Positions 1,366 to 63,305 of a DNA stretch of 64,000 bases are shown piece by piece. The stretch is from contig NZ_KB913035.1 of the NCBI RefSeq assembly GCF_000384255.1, forward strand, positions 372,001 to 436,000. The letters run 5' to 3'. The notes under the pieces are model-generated. The model did no database searches. It saw only the letters and a list, made by a program, of their open reading frames with translations, and had not been told where the DNA came from. The position numbers and the translations under genes are program-made. The DNA comes from Methylotenera mobilis 13. GTDB lineage: Bacteria > Pseudomonadota > Gammaproteobacteria > Burkholderiales > Methylophilaceae. Positions within the stretch are counted from its first letter, which is position 1. Each line of letters begins with the position of its first letter.

Positions 1366-2763
1366 TTAGTGATCTTCTGCATCGGACTCTAAGTCTAGGT
1401 CACTATCTTTGGTGAGACCAAGTTTCGCAAGCCGATAGCGTAATGTGCGGAATGTCACGCCTAGCAGTTTGGCAGCAGCCGTTTTGTTGTTATTCGTTTT
1501 ATCTAGGGCCTGAATAATGGCCTTTTTTTCTACCTCTTCAAGGTAGTCAGTCAGATTGATTTCATTGGAGTGATGACTGTCAAACATAACATTAGGAATG
1601 TTAGTCGGTGCATCTAGACTTCCCTCCGTCAGTACGTCCTCAACGTTAATCGTCTCTCCATCACATAGTGCAAGCGCACGTTCTAGCATGTTTTCTAATT
1701 CGCGCACATTGCCTGGAAATGCTAGGCTAGAAATATAAGTGTGTGCTTTAGCGTCAATCTTAGGTGTTGCGATATCTTGAGCTTGGCACAGCTTATTGAG
1801 TAACATTTCGGTGAGTAGCGGAATGTCAGTAGGCCGGCAGCGTAGGGCTGGCATCTTAAGTTGAATCACGTTAAGCCGGTAATACAAATCTTTTCTAAAT
1901 TGGCCTGTATCCATCATTTCGGTTAAGTTTTTATGCGTCGCACTAATAATACGTACATCGACGGCGTCTTCATTTGTACCACCTACCATCCGGACTTTTT
2001 TCTCTTGAATCGCTCTTAGCAACTTTACTTGCATTGCAAGCGGCAAGTCAGCAACCTCATCTAAAAATAATGTTCCACCGTTAGCGGCTTGAAATAAACC
2101 TTCTTTATCTTGATTTGCTCCCGTGAATGCCCCTTTTTTATATCCGAAGAACTCACTCTCCATTAAATTTTCAGGAATAGCACCACAGTTAACAGCAATA
2201 AAGGCACCATCGGCACGCGAGCTGTTTTGGTGGATAAGTTTAGCCGCCAGTTCCTTTCCGCTACCAGATTCGCCGCTGATGTAAACCGGCGCTTGGCTAC
2301 GAGATACTTTTGCAATCATGTTACGCACGTATTGAATTTGCTCAGAATTGCCAATCATTTCTAAGGTGTTAGGTGTGTTTTGAGCAGTCCTTGCACTCAG
2401 CTTGAGCGCAGACTCAATCACGGGGCGTAGTTGTTTCAGTGAGATTGGTTTGGCGAGATAGTCAAAAGCACCAGCTTTGAGTGCAGAAACAGCATTGTCC
2501 GCACTGGCATGAGCGGTAATCACTGCTACTGGTAAGCCTAGGTGAAATTCATTAATATAGTTAACAAGGTCAAGACCAGTGCCATTCGGCATTTGCATGT
2601 CAGTTAAACATAGCGCGTAGGAGCGTTGCTTGAGCATGGCCTTAGCCTCCTCTAAACTACTTGCGCTATATGTTTCAACATCCATACGCTCTAGCGTCAT
2701 CGCAAGCAGTTCGCGAATGTCGGTTTCATCATCTACAATTAAGCAGCTAGGTCTTTGTTGCAT
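1366..2763 (-). CDS. pilR: Sigma-54-dependent response regulator PilR
   Basis: The 465-residue protein has three domains. An N-terminal receiver (residues 1-120) has the acidic pair D11/D12, phospho-acceptor D55 in LTDMQMPNG and the conserved K in AKPIS. The AAA+ domain has Walker A GESGSGKE (164-171), an intact GAFTGA loop (211-216) that contacts sigma-54, and Walker B LFLDE (232-236). A Fis-type helix-turn-helix lies at the C-terminus (NNKTAAAKLLGVTFRTLRYR). PilR with PilS classically activates pilA and type IV pilus genes. Its gene lies 32 bases downstream of pilS. All motifs needed for ATP-driven open-complex formation are present, in contrast to the NtrX-like regulator at 40945. Confidence 0.93.
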   Translation of the reverse strand: MQQRPSCLIVDDETDIRELLAMTLERMDVETYSASSLEEAKAMLKQRSYALCLTDMQMPNGTGLDLVNYINEFHLGLPVAVITAHASADNAVSALKAGAFDYLAKPISLKQLRPVIESALKLSARTAQNTPNTLEMIGNSEQIQYVRNMIAKVSRSQAPVYISGESGSGKELAAKLIHQNSSRADGAFIAVNCGAIPENLMESEFFGYKKGAFTGANQDKEGLFQAANGGTLFLDEVADLPLAMQVKLLRAIQEKKVRMVGGTNEDAVDVRIISATHKNLTEMMDTGQFRKDLYYRLNVIQLKMPALRCRPTDIPLLTEMLLNKLCQAQDIATPKIDAKAHTYISSLAFPGNVRELENMLERALALCDGETINVEDVLTEGSLDAPTNIPNVMFDSHHSNEINLTDYLEEVEKKAIIQALDKTNNNKTAAAKLLGVTFRTLRYRLAKLGLTKDSDLDLESDAEDH

Positions 2764-2795
2764 ACTAAAATATTGCCCTTTGACGGATTGCGGTA

Positions 2796-4400
2796 TTAGT
2801 TGATTGTTTGTAATTGAAGAATAAAGGCACTGCCTGAATCTAGTTTTTGGTAACTTAGGCGCGAACCATTTGCTTCTGCAAGTTCACGTGAAATGTAGAG
2901 GCCTAAGCCATTTCCTGTCGTTTTTGTTGTGTAAAAAGGTTCAAATAGCTTGTTACGATTCTCTTCTGCAACACCCTCACCATCATCAATGATTTCTAAG
3001 TTTAAACCAGCTCTTCCATTTTTTGCACAGTTTAACTTTAAGCTACCCACCTGTTTCTGGCTATGCTCCCAGCCATTTTTACACAAATTCCACAAAATTT
3101 GCATCAAATGGCGCTGGTCATAAGCAATGAATAAGTTGTCTTTAAATGATGGTATTTGAAAATGTGAAGCAGGTATCTTTTCTACAGCACAGAATTGGGT
3201 ATAAAAATCGAGAATGAATTGGTTAAGCGATAACCTTTCTTGGTTGGTGCGGTCACGGCGATTGAGCTCAAGCACATCTTTGATGATTTGATCAATGCGT
3301 TGGATATTGTCCGCAATAATTTGCAACATCCGTTTGTTCTGTACGTTAAAGTCTTCTTCTTGTAGCAACTGATTGGCATGGCTAATCGCGCTGAGTGGGT
3401 TGCGTATCTCGTGTGCGATGTTGGCTGTCAGTCGTCCAAGTGCTGCCAATTTTGATTGTTGTGCGGCGGACTGTATTTGACTCCAGTCTTGAATAAAAAT
3501 AACGGCACCGTACAGACGACTGTCATGGTTAATTGGCTCTAATCTTAGTTTTAACTCTTTATTGTTAATTGAAATGATGAGGTTTTCACTGATGTTCTCT
3601 GCATGCATCCATCGTGTAAATACATGCGCGATTTCTATCGCACTATCACTGAGTTTTATGGTTTCTTCATCATCCACTTTCTTACGCGTAAGTAGTGGCA
3701 TTGCTTGTGAGTTGTGATGGTGAATATTCAGAAACTGGTCAATGACAATCACCCCATCCTGCATTTCTTCGGTGATAAGCGCATTTACCTGTGCCAAGTT
3801 TTCAAGATCAATCCCACGCGCAGAAGCCAGCGCTTCACTTTGCGTCATGCGTTTAGCAAAGCTATATCCCAACCAGGCGGTCGCAAAGCAACTCAAGCTC
3901 AGCATGGCGGGTTGGCTGTACCCTGAAATAGGCAACATCCACTTGGCTATTTGATAACTTTGTTCTAGTAGTAAGCCGATGGTAGCAATCGCTGCATAAA
4001 ACAGCGCTAAGCGTCCATTGCTAATTAGGCTGGCTGTAACGATGGTGATGATTAATAGTAGCCCTAAACCACTTTGTATGCCGCCTGCAGCATGCATAAT
4101 GAAAATGATAAAGAATATATCAATAATAATTTGTACTGGGTTGAAAAAGACCAGAGCCGATGATCTGACAGGAGCGACAAGCAGTAAGGTGAAACTGAAC
4201 AGGGAGTAAGCTAAGGATAAGCTAAAGAATAAAGAGGCATCTTGGGTTTCTCCCCAGTTCTCTTGCCCAACATATAAGGAAAATAATACAAAAATTAAGC
4301 TTAATATGAGCCGAAAGACATTGATAATACGAATCGTACGCGCTTGCAGTGATAACTCACTCTGTGCGGTAATATTTTGATAGAGGATATTATCATTCAT
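2796..4400 (-). CDS. pilS: Membrane sensor histidine kinase PilS
   Basis: This 534-residue protein begins with about six transmembrane segments (residues 28-185), followed by a PAS-like region (210-310) and a kinase core. The H box is LGRLTANIAHEIRNPLSAISHA, with the phospho-accepting His in the AHEIRNP motif. The N box (LWNLCKNGWEHS), G1 (DDGEGV) and G2 (TGNGLGLYIS) ATP-binding motifs are all present. The six-helix N-terminus without a large periplasmic domain matches PilS, which in Pseudomonas senses pilin in the membrane. It is the first gene of a pilS-pilR pair; no pilus structural gene lies in the window. Confidence 0.92.
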   Translation of the reverse strand: MNDNILYQNITAQSELSLQARTIRIINVFRLILSLIFVLFSLYVGQENWGETQDASLFFSLSLAYSLFSFTLLLVAPVRSSALVFFNPVQIIIDIFFIIFIMHAAGGIQSGLGLLLIITIVTASLISNGRLALFYAAIATIGLLLEQSYQIAKWMLPISGYSQPAMLSLSCFATAWLGYSFAKRMTQSEALASARGIDLENLAQVNALITEEMQDGVIVIDQFLNIHHHNSQAMPLLTRKKVDDEETIKLSDSAIEIAHVFTRWMHAENISENLIISINNKELKLRLEPINHDSRLYGAVIFIQDWSQIQSAAQQSKLAALGRLTANIAHEIRNPLSAISHANQLLQEEDFNVQNKRMLQIIADNIQRIDQIIKDVLELNRRDRTNQERLSLNQFILDFYTQFCAVEKIPASHFQIPSFKDNLFIAYDQRHLMQILWNLCKNGWEHSQKQVGSLKLNCAKNGRAGLNLEIIDDGEGVAEENRNKLFEPFYTTKTTGNGLGLYISRELAEANGSRLSYQKLDSGSAFILQLQTIN

Positions 4401-4449: not shown

Positions 4450-4683
4450 CTATGAAGCATCTGATTTGATATGCGCTTTGGTACAGTAAAATTTACCATC
4501 AACTAAAAATGCCTCAGAGCGCGGTAAGTGCACATGGCATTGATCACACTCCACCATATTCTCAATATTGGTTTCTTCCTGATTTTTCTGTGCTGGGGAT
4601 TTATTTTGATTGGTACTTAAGCCACGTTTAATCAGTTGAATGACTAACCAAATGACGATACCCCAAAAAATTAGCTTCCACAT
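4450..4683 (-). CDS. Small PP0621-family membrane protein with Cys/His motif
   Basis: This 77-residue protein has one N-terminal transmembrane helix (MWKLIFWGIVIWLVIQLI) and a C-terminal metal-site-like pattern: CDQCHVHLPRSEAF, then GKFYCTKAHI. The CxxC...H...C...H arrangement is typical of the PP0621 family of short proteobacterial proteins, often found next to pilS/pilR. Its function is unknown; zinc binding is inferred from the ligands only. It lies 49 bases upstream of pilS on the same strand and may be the first gene of that transcription unit. Confidence 0.8.
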   Translation of the reverse strand: MWKLIFWGIVIWLVIQLIKRGLSTNQNKSPAQKNQEETNIENMVECDQCHVHLPRSEAFLVDGKFYCTKAHIKSDAS

Positions 4684-4995
4684 AATATAAAGTTGCTCTT
4701 GTCTTGATCATTAAATTTAGATTGTAACTAAAAGCGCCAGTTTCGTTTGATTTTTCATGAATATACGTTTACTAGCTCTAGCTGCCTCAATTAAACAGTT
4801 GGAATAAGTGTATTGTGTTTCAGCTGTCATATCTACACTCAACATCTAAATCTAAGCCATCAGAGGGCTCAGTAGTAAATCCAGTAGAAAATACAAACCT
4901 GATATACTTAAGCCTAAACATGCAATTCAGTTTGAGCATGACATTCGCTTCACAGTATAAAATACCAATCTAAAATATGGCGTTTAATTTTTAAC
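4684..4995. other. Divergent intergenic region with promoter for the sigma operon
   Basis: This 312-bp AT-rich gap separates the PP0621-family gene (minus) from the ECF sigma gene (plus). I found no ORF of credible coding character and no structured RNA. It contains one good plus-strand promoter candidate (4932-4961). Confidence 0.6.
4932..4961 (+). promoter_or_regulatory. Candidate sigma-70 promoter of the ECF sigma operon
   Basis: TTGAGC (4932-4937) and TATAAA (4956-4961) are 18 bp apart and lie 35 bp upstream of the sigma factor ATG. This looks like a housekeeping promoter rather than an ECF autoregulated one, although an ECF motif cannot be excluded without knowing its consensus. Confidence 0.5.
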
Positions 4996-5592
4996 ATGGC
5001 AACACCCAAGGAACTCTCTGACTTTCTCGCAGCGACAGAGCGGCGTGCATTTAAACAGACGGCTTATGCGGTCAGAGATGATCATGCTGCGCTTGATATC
5101 GTGCAGGATGCTATGATGAAACTGGCCGATAAATACGGCGCTCAACCTGTTTCAGAGTTCCCCATGCTGTTTCAGCGTATTTTACAAAATACGATGCGTG
5201 ATTACTGGCGTAGGCAAAAAGTGCGTAACCTGTGGACCACCCTCTTGTCATCATTCGGCGGCAGTGCTGATGACAATGAAGACCGTGATCCACTTGATAC
5301 GATAGACGTGGGCGATGATGGTGACGAGCCTTCAGTCCAAATTGCACGTAGTCAAACAATTGCATTGATAGAGCGGGCATTAGAAAAACTACCAGCACGT
5401 CAACGTGAAGCGTTTGTGCTGCGTTACTGGGAGGAGATGGACGTGGCAGAGACAGCGGAAATTATGGGATGCTCCGATGGTAGCGTTAAAACACATTGCT
5501 CACGAGCGGTGCATGCTTTGGCTGTGGAGTTACGTAAGCAAGGGTTAGATAAGCTGGGCTTGTCGAATGTTACCTTAAATGGACCTAGATAA
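4996..5592 (+). CDS. ECF-type RNA polymerase sigma factor
   Basis: A 198-residue sigma-70-family protein of two-domain ECF architecture. Region 2 spans about residues 10-85 (DDHAALDIVQDAMMKLADKY, then MRDYWRRQK). Region 4 spans about 130-180, with LPARQREAFVLRYWEEMDVAE and the helix-turn-helix MGCSDGSVKTHCSRA. The linker (85-120) is acidic. It is followed after 24 bp by a DUF3619 gene and then by an overlapping DUF3106 gene, an order I recognise from other betaproteobacteria. ECF genes are commonly followed by their anti-sigma gene; DUF3619 is the candidate here by topology. The regulon is unknown. Confidence 0.88.
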   Translation: MATPKELSDFLAATERRAFKQTAYAVRDDHAALDIVQDAMMKLADKYGAQPVSEFPMLFQRILQNTMRDYWRRQKVRNLWTTLLSSFGGSADDNEDRDPLDTIDVGDDGDEPSVQIARSQTIALIERALEKLPARQREAFVLRYWEEMDVAETAEIMGCSDGSVKTHCSRAVHALAVELRKQGLDKLGLSNVTLNGPR

Positions 5593-5616
5593 TGGCTCGA
5601 AAAATAGGAGCGAGCA

Positions 5617-6063
5617 ATGAAAATTGATGACAACAAACATATAGATCAACAAGCATCTTTGGACGCAAACGTAGAAGATCAAATAGCTCGCAATATTGTT
5701 GAGTTGCTAGATAGTCGCGCGCAGAAATTACGCGATGAGCATTCGTTGCGTTTGGCAGAAGCACGTAGCCTAGCGATAGGTAGATTAGTCAGTCAGGAAG
5801 CGCAATTGGCCGCTAGCCATAGCATCCACCGGAGTGGGCACACCTTGCAATGGTTTGGTGGGCGTTTCGGACATTATTTTGAGCAGCATCGCATTTTTTC
5901 CACCTTGTTGGTGGTGTGCGTGATGTTGTTAACTTTTTTCGCTGTACAACAGTTTAGTGTTAATCATCAAATAGAAAATAGCGATGCATTCTTGTTGGCC
6001 TCTGACTTGCCACCAGAAGCATACGCAGACAAAGGATTTACTGCATGGCTGGATACCAATTGA
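5617..6063 (+). CDS. DUF3619 family protein, single-pass membrane protein
   Basis: This 148-residue protein has a charged N-terminal part (1-92) starting with a segment matching DUF3619 (NVEDQIARNIVELLDSRAQKL and the LAEARSLAIGRL block), one transmembrane helix at about 93-113 and a short 35-residue tail. With two Arg/His-containing stretches before the helix, the N-terminus is probably cytoplasmic and the tail periplasmic. That topology, and its position directly behind an ECF sigma gene, is what a membrane anti-sigma factor would look like. I see no zinc-binding anti-sigma HxxxCxxC motif, so this role is inference. It overlaps the next gene by 19 bp. Confidence 0.8.
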   Translation: MKIDDNKHIDQQASLDANVEDQIARNIVELLDSRAQKLRDEHSLRLAEARSLAIGRLVSQEAQLAASHSIHRSGHTLQWFGGRFGHYFEQHRIFSTLLVVCVMLLTFFAVQQFSVNHQIENSDAFLLASDLPPEAYADKGFTAWLDTN

Positions 6064-6488
6064 GGCTTAAAAGTTTAGTTTTTGCGTTCGCGCTGTTTGT
6101 CTCTGGCGTTTCAGTCGTTAAGGCAGCTGACGTATCTTGGGCTGAGCTTAATGATGCACAGCGACAAGTGCTAAATCCACTGGCTTCTGAGTGGGATACG
6201 TTGCGCCCATGGCAACGTGAAAAAATGCTCGATATCGCCAGTGACTACCCGAAAATGAATGCTGACAAACAAGCTTTGGTTAAAAAGCGCCTGACTAACT
6301 GGAGCCGGATGACGCCTTATGAGCGTGAGAATGCTAGAAAAAGGCATCAGCAATTCAACGCCTTGTCTGCTGATAAAAAAAGTGAGCTACGTAAGAAATG
6401 GCTAGAGTACCAACAGCTACCTGAGTCTGAGCGAGCTAAATTACGAGCAGAATCGCCAGATACCTATACTGATGCAGATTTGAACTAA
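6045..6488 (+). CDS. DUF3106 family secreted helical protein
   Basis: A 147-residue protein with a signal peptide (LVFAFALFVSGVSVVKAA, predicted cut near residue 27-28). The mature part consists of about five repeats of roughly 20-22 residues of the form W-x-x-L-x-x-x-x-R: WAELNDAQRQVL, WDTLRPWQREKML, YPKMNADKQALV, WSRMTPYERENA, FNALSADKKSEL, YQQLPESERAKL. This is the DUF3106 pattern. It resembles short-helix periplasmic sensors in layout, but no function is established that I know of. Its start overlaps the end of the DUF3619 gene and is preceded by AAAGGA, so translation is probably coupled. Confidence 0.85.
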   Translation: MAGYQLRLKSLVFAFALFVSGVSVVKAADVSWAELNDAQRQVLNPLASEWDTLRPWQREKMLDIASDYPKMNADKQALVKKRLTNWSRMTPYERENARKRHQQFNALSADKKSELRKKWLEYQQLPESERAKLRAESPDTYTDADLN

Positions 6489-6491
6489 ACA

Positions 6492-6547
6492 TTCGGCGCT
6501 GTTTTTTTAATCACAGTTTATACTGTATTTAAAAAAACAGCGCCGAA
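6492..6547. terminator. Long perfect inverted repeat, bidirectional terminator-like
   Basis: The 19-bp arm TTCGGCGCTGTTTTTTTAA (6492-6510) is repeated exactly inverted at 6529-6547 around an 18-base centre. Within that centre ACAGT (6513-6517) can pair with ACTGT (6522-6526), extending the hairpin. The T7 and A7 tracts are inside the arms, so each strand ends a GC-rich block in a T run. It separates the DUF3106 gene from the RDD gene. Confidence 0.7.
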
Positions 6548-6558
6548 GTATCTATTGT

Positions 6559-6999
6559 ATGAACCCTCAACAACACGCCACTATTTTGTCGAAAAACCAA
6601 GCCCCAAGTTTAATTAAGTTATGCGCATGCATGGTCTATGAACTGCTTACTATCATTGCACTGTGCATTGTATTTGCAGGGATATTTTATGGCATATTCG
6701 GTGACGCAACTGAAGGTGTTAGACGACTATTTCAGCAGGTCTTTTTGTGGGCGATTTTAGGAATCTACTACCTCTGGTGTTGGACTAAAAGCGGCCAGAC
6801 AGTAGCTATGCAAGCTTGGCATATCAAAGTAGTGACTCAAGATAATGCACCACTTTCTATGCAGATGGCGTTGAGGCGCTATGTGCTAGCTAGCTTAAGC
6901 TTAATGTTATGTGGTCTAGGCTTTTTGTGGGTAATAGTCGATAAGGATCGGTTGTTTTTGCATGATCGTTTGCTTAAATGCAAGATCATCATTGCCTAA
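6559..6999 (+). CDS. RDD family membrane protein
   Basis: This 146-residue protein has three hydrophobic segments (about residues 25-50, 68-80 and 112-130) and the family features YYLWCWTKSGQTVAMQAWHIKVV and KDRLFLHDRLLKCKII. The first-helix RDD signature is degenerate (LIKLCACMVYELL), with the leading Arg replaced. The role of single RDD proteins is mostly unknown; some members are ion transporters. It sits behind the inverted repeat at 6492-6547 and is convergent with lptG, so it is probably transcribed separately from the sigma operon unless the hairpin is leaky. Confidence 0.82.
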   Translation: MNPQQHATILSKNQAPSLIKLCACMVYELLTIIALCIVFAGIFYGIFGDATEGVRRLFQQVFLWAILGIYYLWCWTKSGQTVAMQAWHIKVVTQDNAPLSMQMALRRYVLASLSLMLCGLGFLWVIVDKDRLFLHDRLLKCKIIIA

Positions 7000-61280: not shown

Positions 61281-63305
61281 GTGTCAAACCCATTATTACA
61301 TTTTGCAGGCTTACCCAAATTTAACGAAATCAAGCCGGAGCATGTTGGGCCTGCTGTTGATGCTCTAATTGCTGAAGGGCGTGCTTTAGTTGAGGAACTT
61401 GCTACTAGCAAAGAGGCTCCCACATGGTATAACTTTGCTGTCAAACTAGAAGATCATAGTGAAAAATTGGGTCGCTCATGGAGCCAGGTTGGTCATATGA
61501 ATGCGGTGGTGAATAGTCCTGCATTGCGCGAAGCGTATAACGACAACTTGGCAAAACTCACTGATTTTTACAGTGACTTGTCACAAGATGAGCGTTTATA
61601 TGCGAAGTTTAAAGCGATTCAGGCCAGTGCGGAATTTGCAAACCTCACCCCTACGCAACAAAAAATTATCAATAACGAAGTACGTGACTTTAAATTAGGC
61701 GGCGCTGAGTTACCTGCTGAGCAAAAAGCCCGTTTTAAAGAAGTCAGCGAAGCCTTGTCTAAGTTGAGTAGTCGGTTTGAAGAAAACATCATGGACAATA
61801 CCAACGATTTTAAACATCTCGTTGAAAATGTTGCTGATTTAGCTGGCTTGCCAGAAGACGCAATCGAAGCCGCCAAAGAAGCCGCAACAGCTGATGGTAA
61901 AGAAGGTTATCAGTTTAGTCTGCACTTTCCATCTTATATGCCAGTGTTGCAATATGCAGATAATCGCGCGCTACGTGAAACCATGTACCGTGCTTATGCC
62001 ACACGCGCTTCAGAATTGAGCAAGCCAGAGTGGGATAACACAAGCTTAATTGGCGATATTCTCAAACTCAAGCGCGAAGAAGCGCAAATGCTCGGCTTTA
62101 GCAATTTTGCAGAGCTTTCACTCGCCACCAAGATGGCAGATAGTCCTAAACACGTGACAGAGTTTCTCAACACGTTAGCAAAGCGCGCCAAGCCGTATGC
62201 GCAAAAAGATATGCACGAACTAATAGAATATGCCGCTAAACTGGGCATTGCCGACATGCAAGCTTGGGATGTTGCCTATGTGAGTGAGAAGCTACGTGTT
62301 GAAAAATACGCGTTCTCAGATCAAGAAGTTAAACAATACTTCCCAGAAAATAAAGTGCTGGCTGGTTTGTTTAAAGTCACCGAAACCATTTTTGGCGTAC
62401 AAGTGCGCAAAGTTGATGCCCCTGTATGGCATGCGGATGCAAGTTTTTATGAAATTACGGACAGTGATAATCAGCCTGTTGCTTATTTCTACTTAGACCT
62501 CTATGCGCGCAACCATAAACGCGGTGGTGCATGGATGGATGAATGCATTAGCCGTCGCCAGAAAGAAAGTGGTGTTGAGTTGCCAGTGGCGTATCTGACC
62601 TGCAATTTCTCAGCACCTGTTGGCGGCAAGCCGGCCTTATTCACGCATGATGACGTCATCACCATGTTCCATGAGTTTGGTCATGGCCTGCACCATATGC
62701 TAACGCAAGTGGATGAATACGGTGTATCTGGGATTAAAGGCGTGGAGTGGGATGCAGTAGAACTGCCAAGCCAGTTTATGGAAAACTTCTGCTGGGAATG
62801 GGATGTTTTACGCCATATGACGGCTCATGTAGAAACTGGCGCGCAATTGCCGCGCGAATTGTTCGACAAAATGGTGGCGGCTAAAAATTTCCAAGCCGGT
62901 ATGCAAACCGTTCGTCAAATAGAGTTTTCACTGTTCGATATGCGCCTACATGGCGAGTTTGACCCAAACGGTAAACAGACTGCTTTAGATTTAATCGAAC
63001 AAGTGCGTGATGAAGTCGCTGTAGTTCGCCCACCTAAATGGAACCGATTCCCCAATAGCTTTAGCCATATCTTTGCAGGCGGCTATGCTGCTGGGTATTA
63101 CAGCTATAAATGGGCAGAAGTGCTATCAGCCGATGCTTATAGCCTATTTGAAGAGATGGGTGTACTTTCAGGTGAAGCAGGTAAACGCTTTAAAAATGAA
63201 GTGCTGTCAAAAGGCGGTTCGCGCCCAGCGATGGAGTCATTTGTGGCGTTTAGAGGTAGGGAGCCGAGTATGGATGCACTTTTGCGTCATAATGGCATGG
63301 CTTAA
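61281..63305 (+). CDS. prlC: Oligopeptidase A
   Basis: A 674-residue M3 metallopeptidase. The zinc motif is FHEFGHGLHHMLTQV with the downstream Glu in VEWDAVELPSQFMENF. It starts with GTG; MSNPLLHFAGLPKFNEIKPEHVGPAV is the expected N-terminus. It degrades oligopeptides, including cleaved signal peptides, in the cytosol. It is the last gene before a long gene-free stretch. Confidence 0.96.
   Translation: MSNPLLHFAGLPKFNEIKPEHVGPAVDALIAEGRALVEELATSKEAPTWYNFAVKLEDHSEKLGRSWSQVGHMNAVVNSPALREAYNDNLAKLTDFYSDLSQDERLYAKFKAIQASAEFANLTPTQQKIINNEVRDFKLGGAELPAEQKARFKEVSEALSKLSSRFEENIMDNTNDFKHLVENVADLAGLPEDAIEAAKEAATADGKEGYQFSLHFPSYMPVLQYADNRALRETMYRAYATRASELSKPEWDNTSLIGDILKLKREEAQMLGFSNFAELSLATKMADSPKHVTEFLNTLAKRAKPYAQKDMHELIEYAAKLGIADMQAWDVAYVSEKLRVEKYAFSDQEVKQYFPENKVLAGLFKVTETIFGVQVRKVDAPVWHADASFYEITDSDNQPVAYFYLDLYARNHKRGGAWMDECISRRQKESGVELPVAYLTCNFSAPVGGKPALFTHDDVITMFHEFGHGLHHMLTQVDEYGVSGIKGVEWDAVELPSQFMENFCWEWDVLRHMTAHVETGAQLPRELFDKMVAAKNFQAGMQTVRQIEFSLFDMRLHGEFDPNGKQTALDLIEQVRDEVAVVRPPKWNRFPNSFSHIFAGGYAAGYYSYKWAEVLSADAYSLFEEMGVLSGEAGKRFKNEVLSKGGSRPAMESFVAFRGREPSMDALLRHNGMA

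Follow-up and report, generated by a model that had tools for sequence, protein, structure and literature searches.

An ECF sigma factor–DUF3619–DUF3106 operon of Methylotenera mobilis 13 as a candidate sigma/anti-sigma/periplasmic-partner switch

Does an operon that combines an ECF sigma factor with two DUF proteins, one in the membrane (DUF3619) and one secreted (DUF3106), connect the cell envelope of Methylotenera mobilis 13 to transcription? We analyzed a 64,000-nucleotide stretch of this genome (the window; positions 372,001 to 436,000 of contig NZ_KB913035.1), for which a first-pass annotation had proposed that the three genes mirror sigma/anti-sigma/sensor sets such as CnrH-CnrY-CnrX. 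In our assessment the operon is probably a switch of this general kind, in which DUF3619 would inhibit the sigma factor and DUF3106 would dock on the DUF3619 tail. Such systems are already known; the new point is the peptide-like tail of DUF3619 with DUF3106 as its probable partner.

Layout and conservation of the three-gene operon

The host genome comprises 2.80 Mb in a single contig, and the named loci closest to the window triad are those of Methylotenera. All three genes exist as annotated, each with a score above its family cut-off (Table 1). The sigma factor reached 278 bits with NCBIfam NF006550 (cut-off 173) and matched both Pfam PF04542 (25.6 versus 24) and PF08281 (67 versus 25.7). 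It is a short protein with regions 2 and 4 and without region 3, in line with ECF membership, and ECF sigma factors headed its Foldseek list. At the N-terminus of DUF3106, a signal-peptide-like segment ending in ...VKA-A was read by eye. The genes had been described as overlapping, which applies to DUF3619 and DUF3106 (19 bases) but not to the sigma factor and DUF3619, whose stop and start codons are 24 bases apart; in most other loci examined, the latter two genes overlap by 4 bases.

Table 1 Features of the operon and its flanks (window coordinates)
Feature	Position	Strand	Details
Extended -10-like element TGATATACT, probably the operon's housekeeping promoter	4900-4908	+	Shared among nearest loci
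ECF sigma factor, NF006550/PRK09047 subfamily	4996-5592	+	198 aa; regions 2 and 4
DUF3619 single-pass membrane protein, putative anti-sigma factor	5617-6063	+	148 aa; 113.6 bits versus cut-off 22.2
Cytoplasmic motif R-L-x-x-A-R-x-x-A-L, putative sigma-binding helix	5749-5778	+	DUF3619 residues 45-54; from alignment
Transmembrane helix	5893-5949	+	DUF3619 residues 93-111; N-inside by charge
Periplasmic tail motif D-A-F-L-L-A-S-D-L-P-P-E-A-Y-A-D-K-G-F-T-A-W-L, putative DUF3106 docking peptide	5983-6051	+	DUF3619 residues 123-145; from alignment and joint decay
DUF3106 secreted helical protein, putative periplasmic partner of the DUF3619 tail	6045-6488	+	147 aa; 114.3 bits versus cut-off 24.3
DUF3106 signal peptide	~6045-6128	+	
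DUF3106 domain	6138-6446	+	
RDD-family membrane protein	6559-6999	+	Pfam match; 3' of DUF3106

Conservation of the gene order, suggested earlier as a check, was followed in 150 genomes sampled within the order of the window (nine weak DUF3106 stretches were omitted from the triad count) and in 274 genomes at class level (81 DUF3106 stretches after removal of weak second stretches within a gene). Within the order, 109 genomes had the sigma factor above cut-off, 107 had DUF3619 (E ≤ 0.001) and 109 had DUF3106. Sigma factor and DUF3619 occurred together in 106 genomes, the sigma factor alone in 3, DUF3619 alone in 1 and neither in 40. The exact order sigma–DUF3619–DUF3106 was present at 105 of the 111 sigma-subfamily stretches, and the six others include a paralogous locus of the window genome itself and a sigma fragment split between contigs (G385). 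In G277, both partners are absent by the family models, yet a DUF3619-like gene is there; G274 and G367 have DUF3106 together with a DUF3619-like gene not recognized by the family model, and G335 has DUF3619 without DUF3106.

At class level, DUF3106 was located ≤2.5 kb downstream of 60 of 64 above-cut-off sigma copies, and of 68 of 75 copies with at least 100 bits. The sigma–DUF3106 gaps (392–832 bases) leave space for a middle gene. Of the 75 loci, 71 yielded a middle frame, and in 70 of these frames a hydrophobic stretch is clear. Counted in reverse, 68 of the 81 DUF3106 stretches lay downstream of such a sigma factor and 13 did not. DUF3106 was also present at 76 of 80 named loci. The three genes thus form a strongly conserved unit: with both sigma factor and DUF3619 in 106/150 genomes and 105/111 exact triads, the arrangement is far beyond chance. 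The switch reading proposes a role for two DUFs that are common in the window's order.

Conserved order might also mean that the three genes merely share an operon and that DUF3106 has no regulatory link. An RDD gene, for which no link is known, is likewise a frequent neighbor (65 of 80 named loci have a match ≤2.6 kb downstream of the sigma factor, and another 4 are too short to tell), and the docking of DUF3106 is something that we infer. Across the class, however, DUF3106 accompanies the sigma factor, whereas a profile derived from five RDD proteins, applied mostly to 1.8 kb of flank, detected RDD at just 2 of 68 triads. Together with the gene fusions and the joint decay of tail and DUF3106 described below, this renders mere operon sharing extremely unlikely.

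Individual loci deviate from the common layout. L267 and L277 have RDD after the sigma gene, with no DUF3619 or DUF3106 detected in between. L158 (G185) has its sigma gene divided into two overlapping frames, one for region 2 and one for region 4, and also contains the middle gene and DUF3106.

DUF3619 as the candidate anti-sigma factor

DUF3619 had been annotated as a single-pass protein with ~92 residues before the membrane helix, in agreement with residues 93-111 being its sole hydrophobic stretch. An N-in/C-out topology is indicated by charge, the N-terminal side being more positive in 106 of 112 window-type DUF3619 sequences (2 ties). This set excludes L193, L175, L195, L210, L257, L267 and L277, which have fused, wrong or missing frames. 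In its cytoplasmic part, L31, L46 and R50 are conserved in 112/112 sequences, A53 in 111 and R45 in 89.

The classic zinc anti-sigma motif had been reported as missing, and indeed the sequence holds no H-x3-C-x2-C. The Pfam scan of the window protein returned no anti-sigma domain and no zf-HC2 (PF13490) match, comparison of the DUF3619 sequence profile with the PDB gave no credible relative (none below E 0.4), and a plasmid search with DUF3619 gave no match. The Pfam DUF3619 model itself reaches just 23 of the 274 class genomes. By profile comparison, the middle genes at other class-level loci (L152, L153, L132, L084, L085 and L141 excluded) are nevertheless homologues of DUF3619: whole proteins matched with a probability of 99.0% (E 2e-17), cytoplasmic parts with 97% and tails alone with 11%, while all 72 column-shuffled controls remained below 1%.

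Four of the 71 picked class-level middle genes (L126, L131, L140 and L155) do carry H-x3-C-x2-C, N-terminal to a membrane helix and to a tail resembling those of other middle genes, and in this motif they are like zf-HC2 proteins. When three of them were scanned with zf-HC2, L126 scored 22.8 (above the cut-off of 22.2), L140 18.5 and L155 18.1 (both below). These zinc-type genes matched the other middle genes at 98.6% for whole proteins, 95% for tails and 1.9% for N-terminal parts; compared directly with DUF3619, the values were 89.8%, 7.5% and 0.9%. Because the same operon position bears a zinc anti-sigma motif in some lineages, we consider DUF3619 most likely to be the anti-sigma factor of the operon's sigma factor. 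No other argument for this role is stronger, yet the link is indirect, since the zinc-type genes match the others via the tail and DUF3619 does so mainly via its N-terminal part.

Instead of inhibiting the sigma factor, DUF3619 could anchor it to the membrane or serve as its co-activator. Such a role would accommodate a window protein that has no zinc motif, Pfam anti-sigma domain or solved relative, a cytoplasmic part unlike that of the zinc-type genes, and a fold of the pair that is not confident (see below). It would leave the zinc anti-sigma motif in same-position genes of the same operon to be accounted for, and a membrane gene directly 3' of an ECF sigma gene generally fits an anti-sigma factor. 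We regard an anchor or co-activator as very unlikely and retain the anti-sigma reading.

Structure prediction of the complex was another suggested check. Sigma factor and DUF3619 were folded as one read-through chain with alignment A4, in which 66 of 67 DUF3619 rows were well placed; alignment A2 was discarded as its DUF3619 rows sat on the sigma part. The sigma regions were well modelled, and DUF3619 showed its membrane helix plus two cytoplasmic ones (residues ~6-36 and 40-67); the sigma contact, however, was not confidently placed (pTM 0.45). Confidence in the cytoplasmic helices was mostly 72–80 with the sigma factor versus 75–91 without it (different protein and alignment). The fold model thus neither supports nor refutes binding between sigma factor and DUF3619. 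Class I anti-sigma domains are described in PMC7406223 as a bundle of three helices plus a fourth one that contacts the sigma factor, against which the two helices modelled here (pTM 0.45) stand. CnrY has a class II domain, which wraps around the outside of the sigma factor (PMC8103513), as does NepR; the two modelled helices are compatible with such a short-helix embrace, the contact again not being confident (pTM 0.45). From zf-HC2 proteins, the window DUF3619 differs in its missing motif and in a cytoplasmic part modelled as two helices.

The DUF3619 tail and its candidate partner DUF3106

Beyond the membrane helix, DUF3619 has only ~37 residues, with the consensus D-A-x-L-L-x-x-D-L-P-x-x-A-Y-x-D-x-G-F-x-x-W-L. 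Conservation in the 112 sequences is high, with L127 in 112, P132 in 109, D123 in 107, A135 in 106, and L131 and D138 each in 104. At L193 and L199, DUF3619 and DUF3106 are fused in a single frame with DUF3106 after the tail; the L193 fusion has 319 aa and both Pfam domains above cut-off. Both fusions occur in one genus and may reflect a single event. They place DUF3106 on the tail's side of the membrane and link the two proteins directly.

In addition, tail and DUF3106 decay together. With held-out tail profiles, the fifth percentile among 110 window-type loci with DUF3106 was 30.7 bits, and the lowest score was that of L197 (5.2 bits), which has a poor tail with DUF3106 present. Four loci without DUF3106 had tail scores of 2.7, -2.0, 13.2 and 18.0; the cytoplasmic parts of the same four scored 58.9, 23.6, 47.8 and 50.4, versus a minimum of 26.0 in loci with DUF3106.

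The Nitrosomonadaceae, the family of G335, amount to a natural DUF3106 deletion experiment. Among 81 genomes, assigned to the family by similarity to named Nitrosomonas loci, 65 had DUF3619 and 51 had DUF3106. The Pfam match of DUF3619 extended to model position 127 or beyond in 49/49 genomes with DUF3106 versus 3/16 without (Fisher p 3e-11, kinship ignored). We then scored 38 loci, 22 with and 16 without DUF3106, one of the latter (G493) being impossible to score. Tail scores were 44.2–61.4 in 22/22 loci with DUF3106. The 15 scored loci without it did not exceed 38.3, whereas the cytoplasmic part of DUF3619 was mostly retained there. Eleven of these 15 tails are acidic and extended to 101–158 residues (L318, L320-L324, L326-L329 and L331), many of them repeating a tail-like motif similar to V-D-D-L-S-x-x-A-x-I-D-N; two are short and degenerate, and two are retained.

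On the sigma factor tree, DUF3106 changes 7 times by parsimony and at least 3 times by well-supported branches. Of the independent pairs, 3 are well supported, and among these the tail follows DUF3106 in 2.9 on average and never goes the opposite way (p 0.25). An exception is the clade of G432, G486 and G493 (the last placed there by sequence), which retains the tail without DUF3106; in G432 and G486, the cytoplasmic part is poor instead (16.6 and 19.2). The joint decay is therefore strong in counts and modest in independent events, three losses being firmly independent. From the fusions and the joint decay of the tail with DUF3106 loss, we infer that the DUF3619 tail is the docking site of DUF3106. 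The resulting prediction is sharp, namely that one ~30-residue tail binds one small secreted domain.

Folding DUF3619 together with DUF3106 gave a confident DUF3106 domain (blocks at 86–97); the tail blocks were at 74, 86 and 66 with DUF3106 versus 63, 78 and 77 in the model without it, which says nothing clear on docking. The best Foldseek hit of DUF3106 was uninformative (E 2.8). A second fold comparison, in which CnrX and RseB were not among the structures listed, placed CpxP at rank 11 with Z 2.3, within noise for helical proteins. The DUF3106 sequence profile found no credible relative in the PDB, and its Pfam scan (E ≤ 1) returned only DUF3106 itself and one KRAB chance match.

CpxP/Spy (LTXXQ) proteins are, like DUF3106, small, secreted and helical, which raises the question of whether DUF3619 is the anti-sigma factor while DUF3106 is an effector chaperone in the manner of Spy/CpxP. 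It would then perhaps feed back on DUF3619 under stress only, and the signal would be sensed elsewhere. The position of the DUF3106 gene, last in the triad, and the weak appearance of CpxP in the fold comparison accord with an effector. The fusions and the decay of the tail without DUF3106 point instead to a standing partnership, and DUF3106 has no LTXXQ-type Pfam match at E ≤ 1. An effector role thus appears unlikely, though not negligibly so.

We therefore favor the switch with DUF3106 as the standing partner. In the proposed mechanism, DUF3619 would reside in the inner membrane and its cytoplasmic N-terminal helices would hold the ECF sigma factor inactive, while the C-terminal periplasmic tail would dock secreted DUF3106, as the fusions and the joint decay suggest. 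An envelope change would alter the contact between DUF3106 and the tail, and the signal would cross the membrane either directly or by cutting of DUF3619. The freed sigma factor would then transcribe its regulon. In this scheme, DUF3106 may act either to keep the sigma factor off or to activate it. Gene order, zinc-motif middle genes, fusions and joint decay all favor this part of the earlier proposal, whereas the analogy with CnrH-CnrY-CnrX is supported for the layout only.

Known systems, the paralogous operon and the genomic surroundings

CnrH-CnrY-CnrX of Cupriavidus metallidurans combines an ECF sigma factor, a membrane anti-sigma factor and a periplasmic partner in one operon with the gene order cnrYXH. 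The window operon resembles it in layout, comprising ECF sigma factor, membrane protein and periplasmic partner, but differs in gene order (sigma–DUF3619–DUF3106). Sequence searches with DUF3106 (Pfam at E ≤ 1 and the PDB profile comparison) showed no link to CnrX, a periplasmic sensor with a metal-binding fold; fold comparison was uninformative, and the scanned neighbors are not cnr efflux genes.

RpoE-RseA-RseB (AlgU-MucA-MucB) is similar to the window operon in its sigma factor, membrane anti-sigma factor and periplasmic protein. RseB binds the periplasmic part of RseA, as stated in PMC8103513. DUF3106, however, is small and helical and had no MucB_RseB match at E ≤ 1, and DUF3619 differs from an RseA-type system by the short stretch beyond its membrane helix. 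A further candidate for comparison, RpoQ of C. metallidurans, was set apart because its described surroundings differ, with gig genes and one putative anti-sigma gene (PMC7019866, PMC13192273).

In the open-licence literature, we found no paper naming DUF3619, DUF3106, PF12279, PF11304 or PRK09047, and none of the titles and abstracts listed by broader queries dealt with this operon. The supplementary group descriptions of a large ECF classification may already list DUF3619 as a putative anti-sigma factor.

The window genome contains a paralogous operon outside the window (L109, G000:C1:1440326-1441932, minus strand). Its order is sigma factor, single-pass middle protein, small exported protein and DUF3106, and its sigma factor is 43% identical to that of the window over 173 residues. 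A small, unannotated exported protein is often located between the middle gene and DUF3106 at other class-level loci as well (e.g. L087, L092, L115 and L120). The motif L-E-F-L-G-x-W-E...D-G-x-W-x-D-P was detected by pattern at 24 of 67 loci, with more recognized by eye among loci that have room for the gene. The window locus has no such room, with 74 bases from the DUF3619 stop codon to the DUF3106 domain. One small exported protein scanned against Pfam (from a query with an out-of-frame start) gave no match.

The acidic-aromatic motif of the exported protein suggests a resemblance to the DUF3619 tail. A widespread peptide-docking envelope switch can be envisaged, in which DUF3106 binds the ~30-residue tail of a minimal anti-sigma protein and, at many other class-level loci, the exported protein (L-E-F-L-G-x-W-E) competes for it. 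If this rather improbable extension were true, the ratio of free peptide to DUF3106 would set sigma factor activity. A separate oddity is L200 (G405), a 248-aa frame that at its C-terminal end is similar to DUF3619 in the membrane helix and the tail (17.4 bits, which is below cut-off). Its long N-terminal part looks like a degenerate sigma factor (no Pfam match), and DUF3106 and RDD follow the frame.

Upstream of the operon, the promoter search (alignment and two patterns) found TGnTATACT or TGTTATAAT within 200 bases of the sigma gene at 19/19 nearest loci (L207-L225). Genome-wide, AAACCTGATATACT had a single occurrence with up to 1 mismatch allowed. As the element is housekeeping-like and single in the genome, no regulon was derived from it. 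Rfam gave no match. Genes of the PilS/PilR two-component type (1366-4400, minus strand) and for a PP0621-family protein (4450-4683, minus strand) are located divergently upstream of the sigma gene.

The interval between DUF3106 and RDD contains a perfect inverted repeat with arms of 19 bases (6492-6510 and 6529-6547), the RNA of which (6492-6547) folds at -35.4 kcal/mol (z -9.3). It is not a typical terminator on account of the G+C at its stem base. A 17-base part of the repeat arm has one other occurrence in the genome, with 2 mismatches. Elsewhere in the window, a 674-aa frame (61281-63305) gave a weak DUF3106 match (23.8 bits) that probably arose by chance; by its motif, read by eye, the frame resembles an M3-type oligopeptidase.
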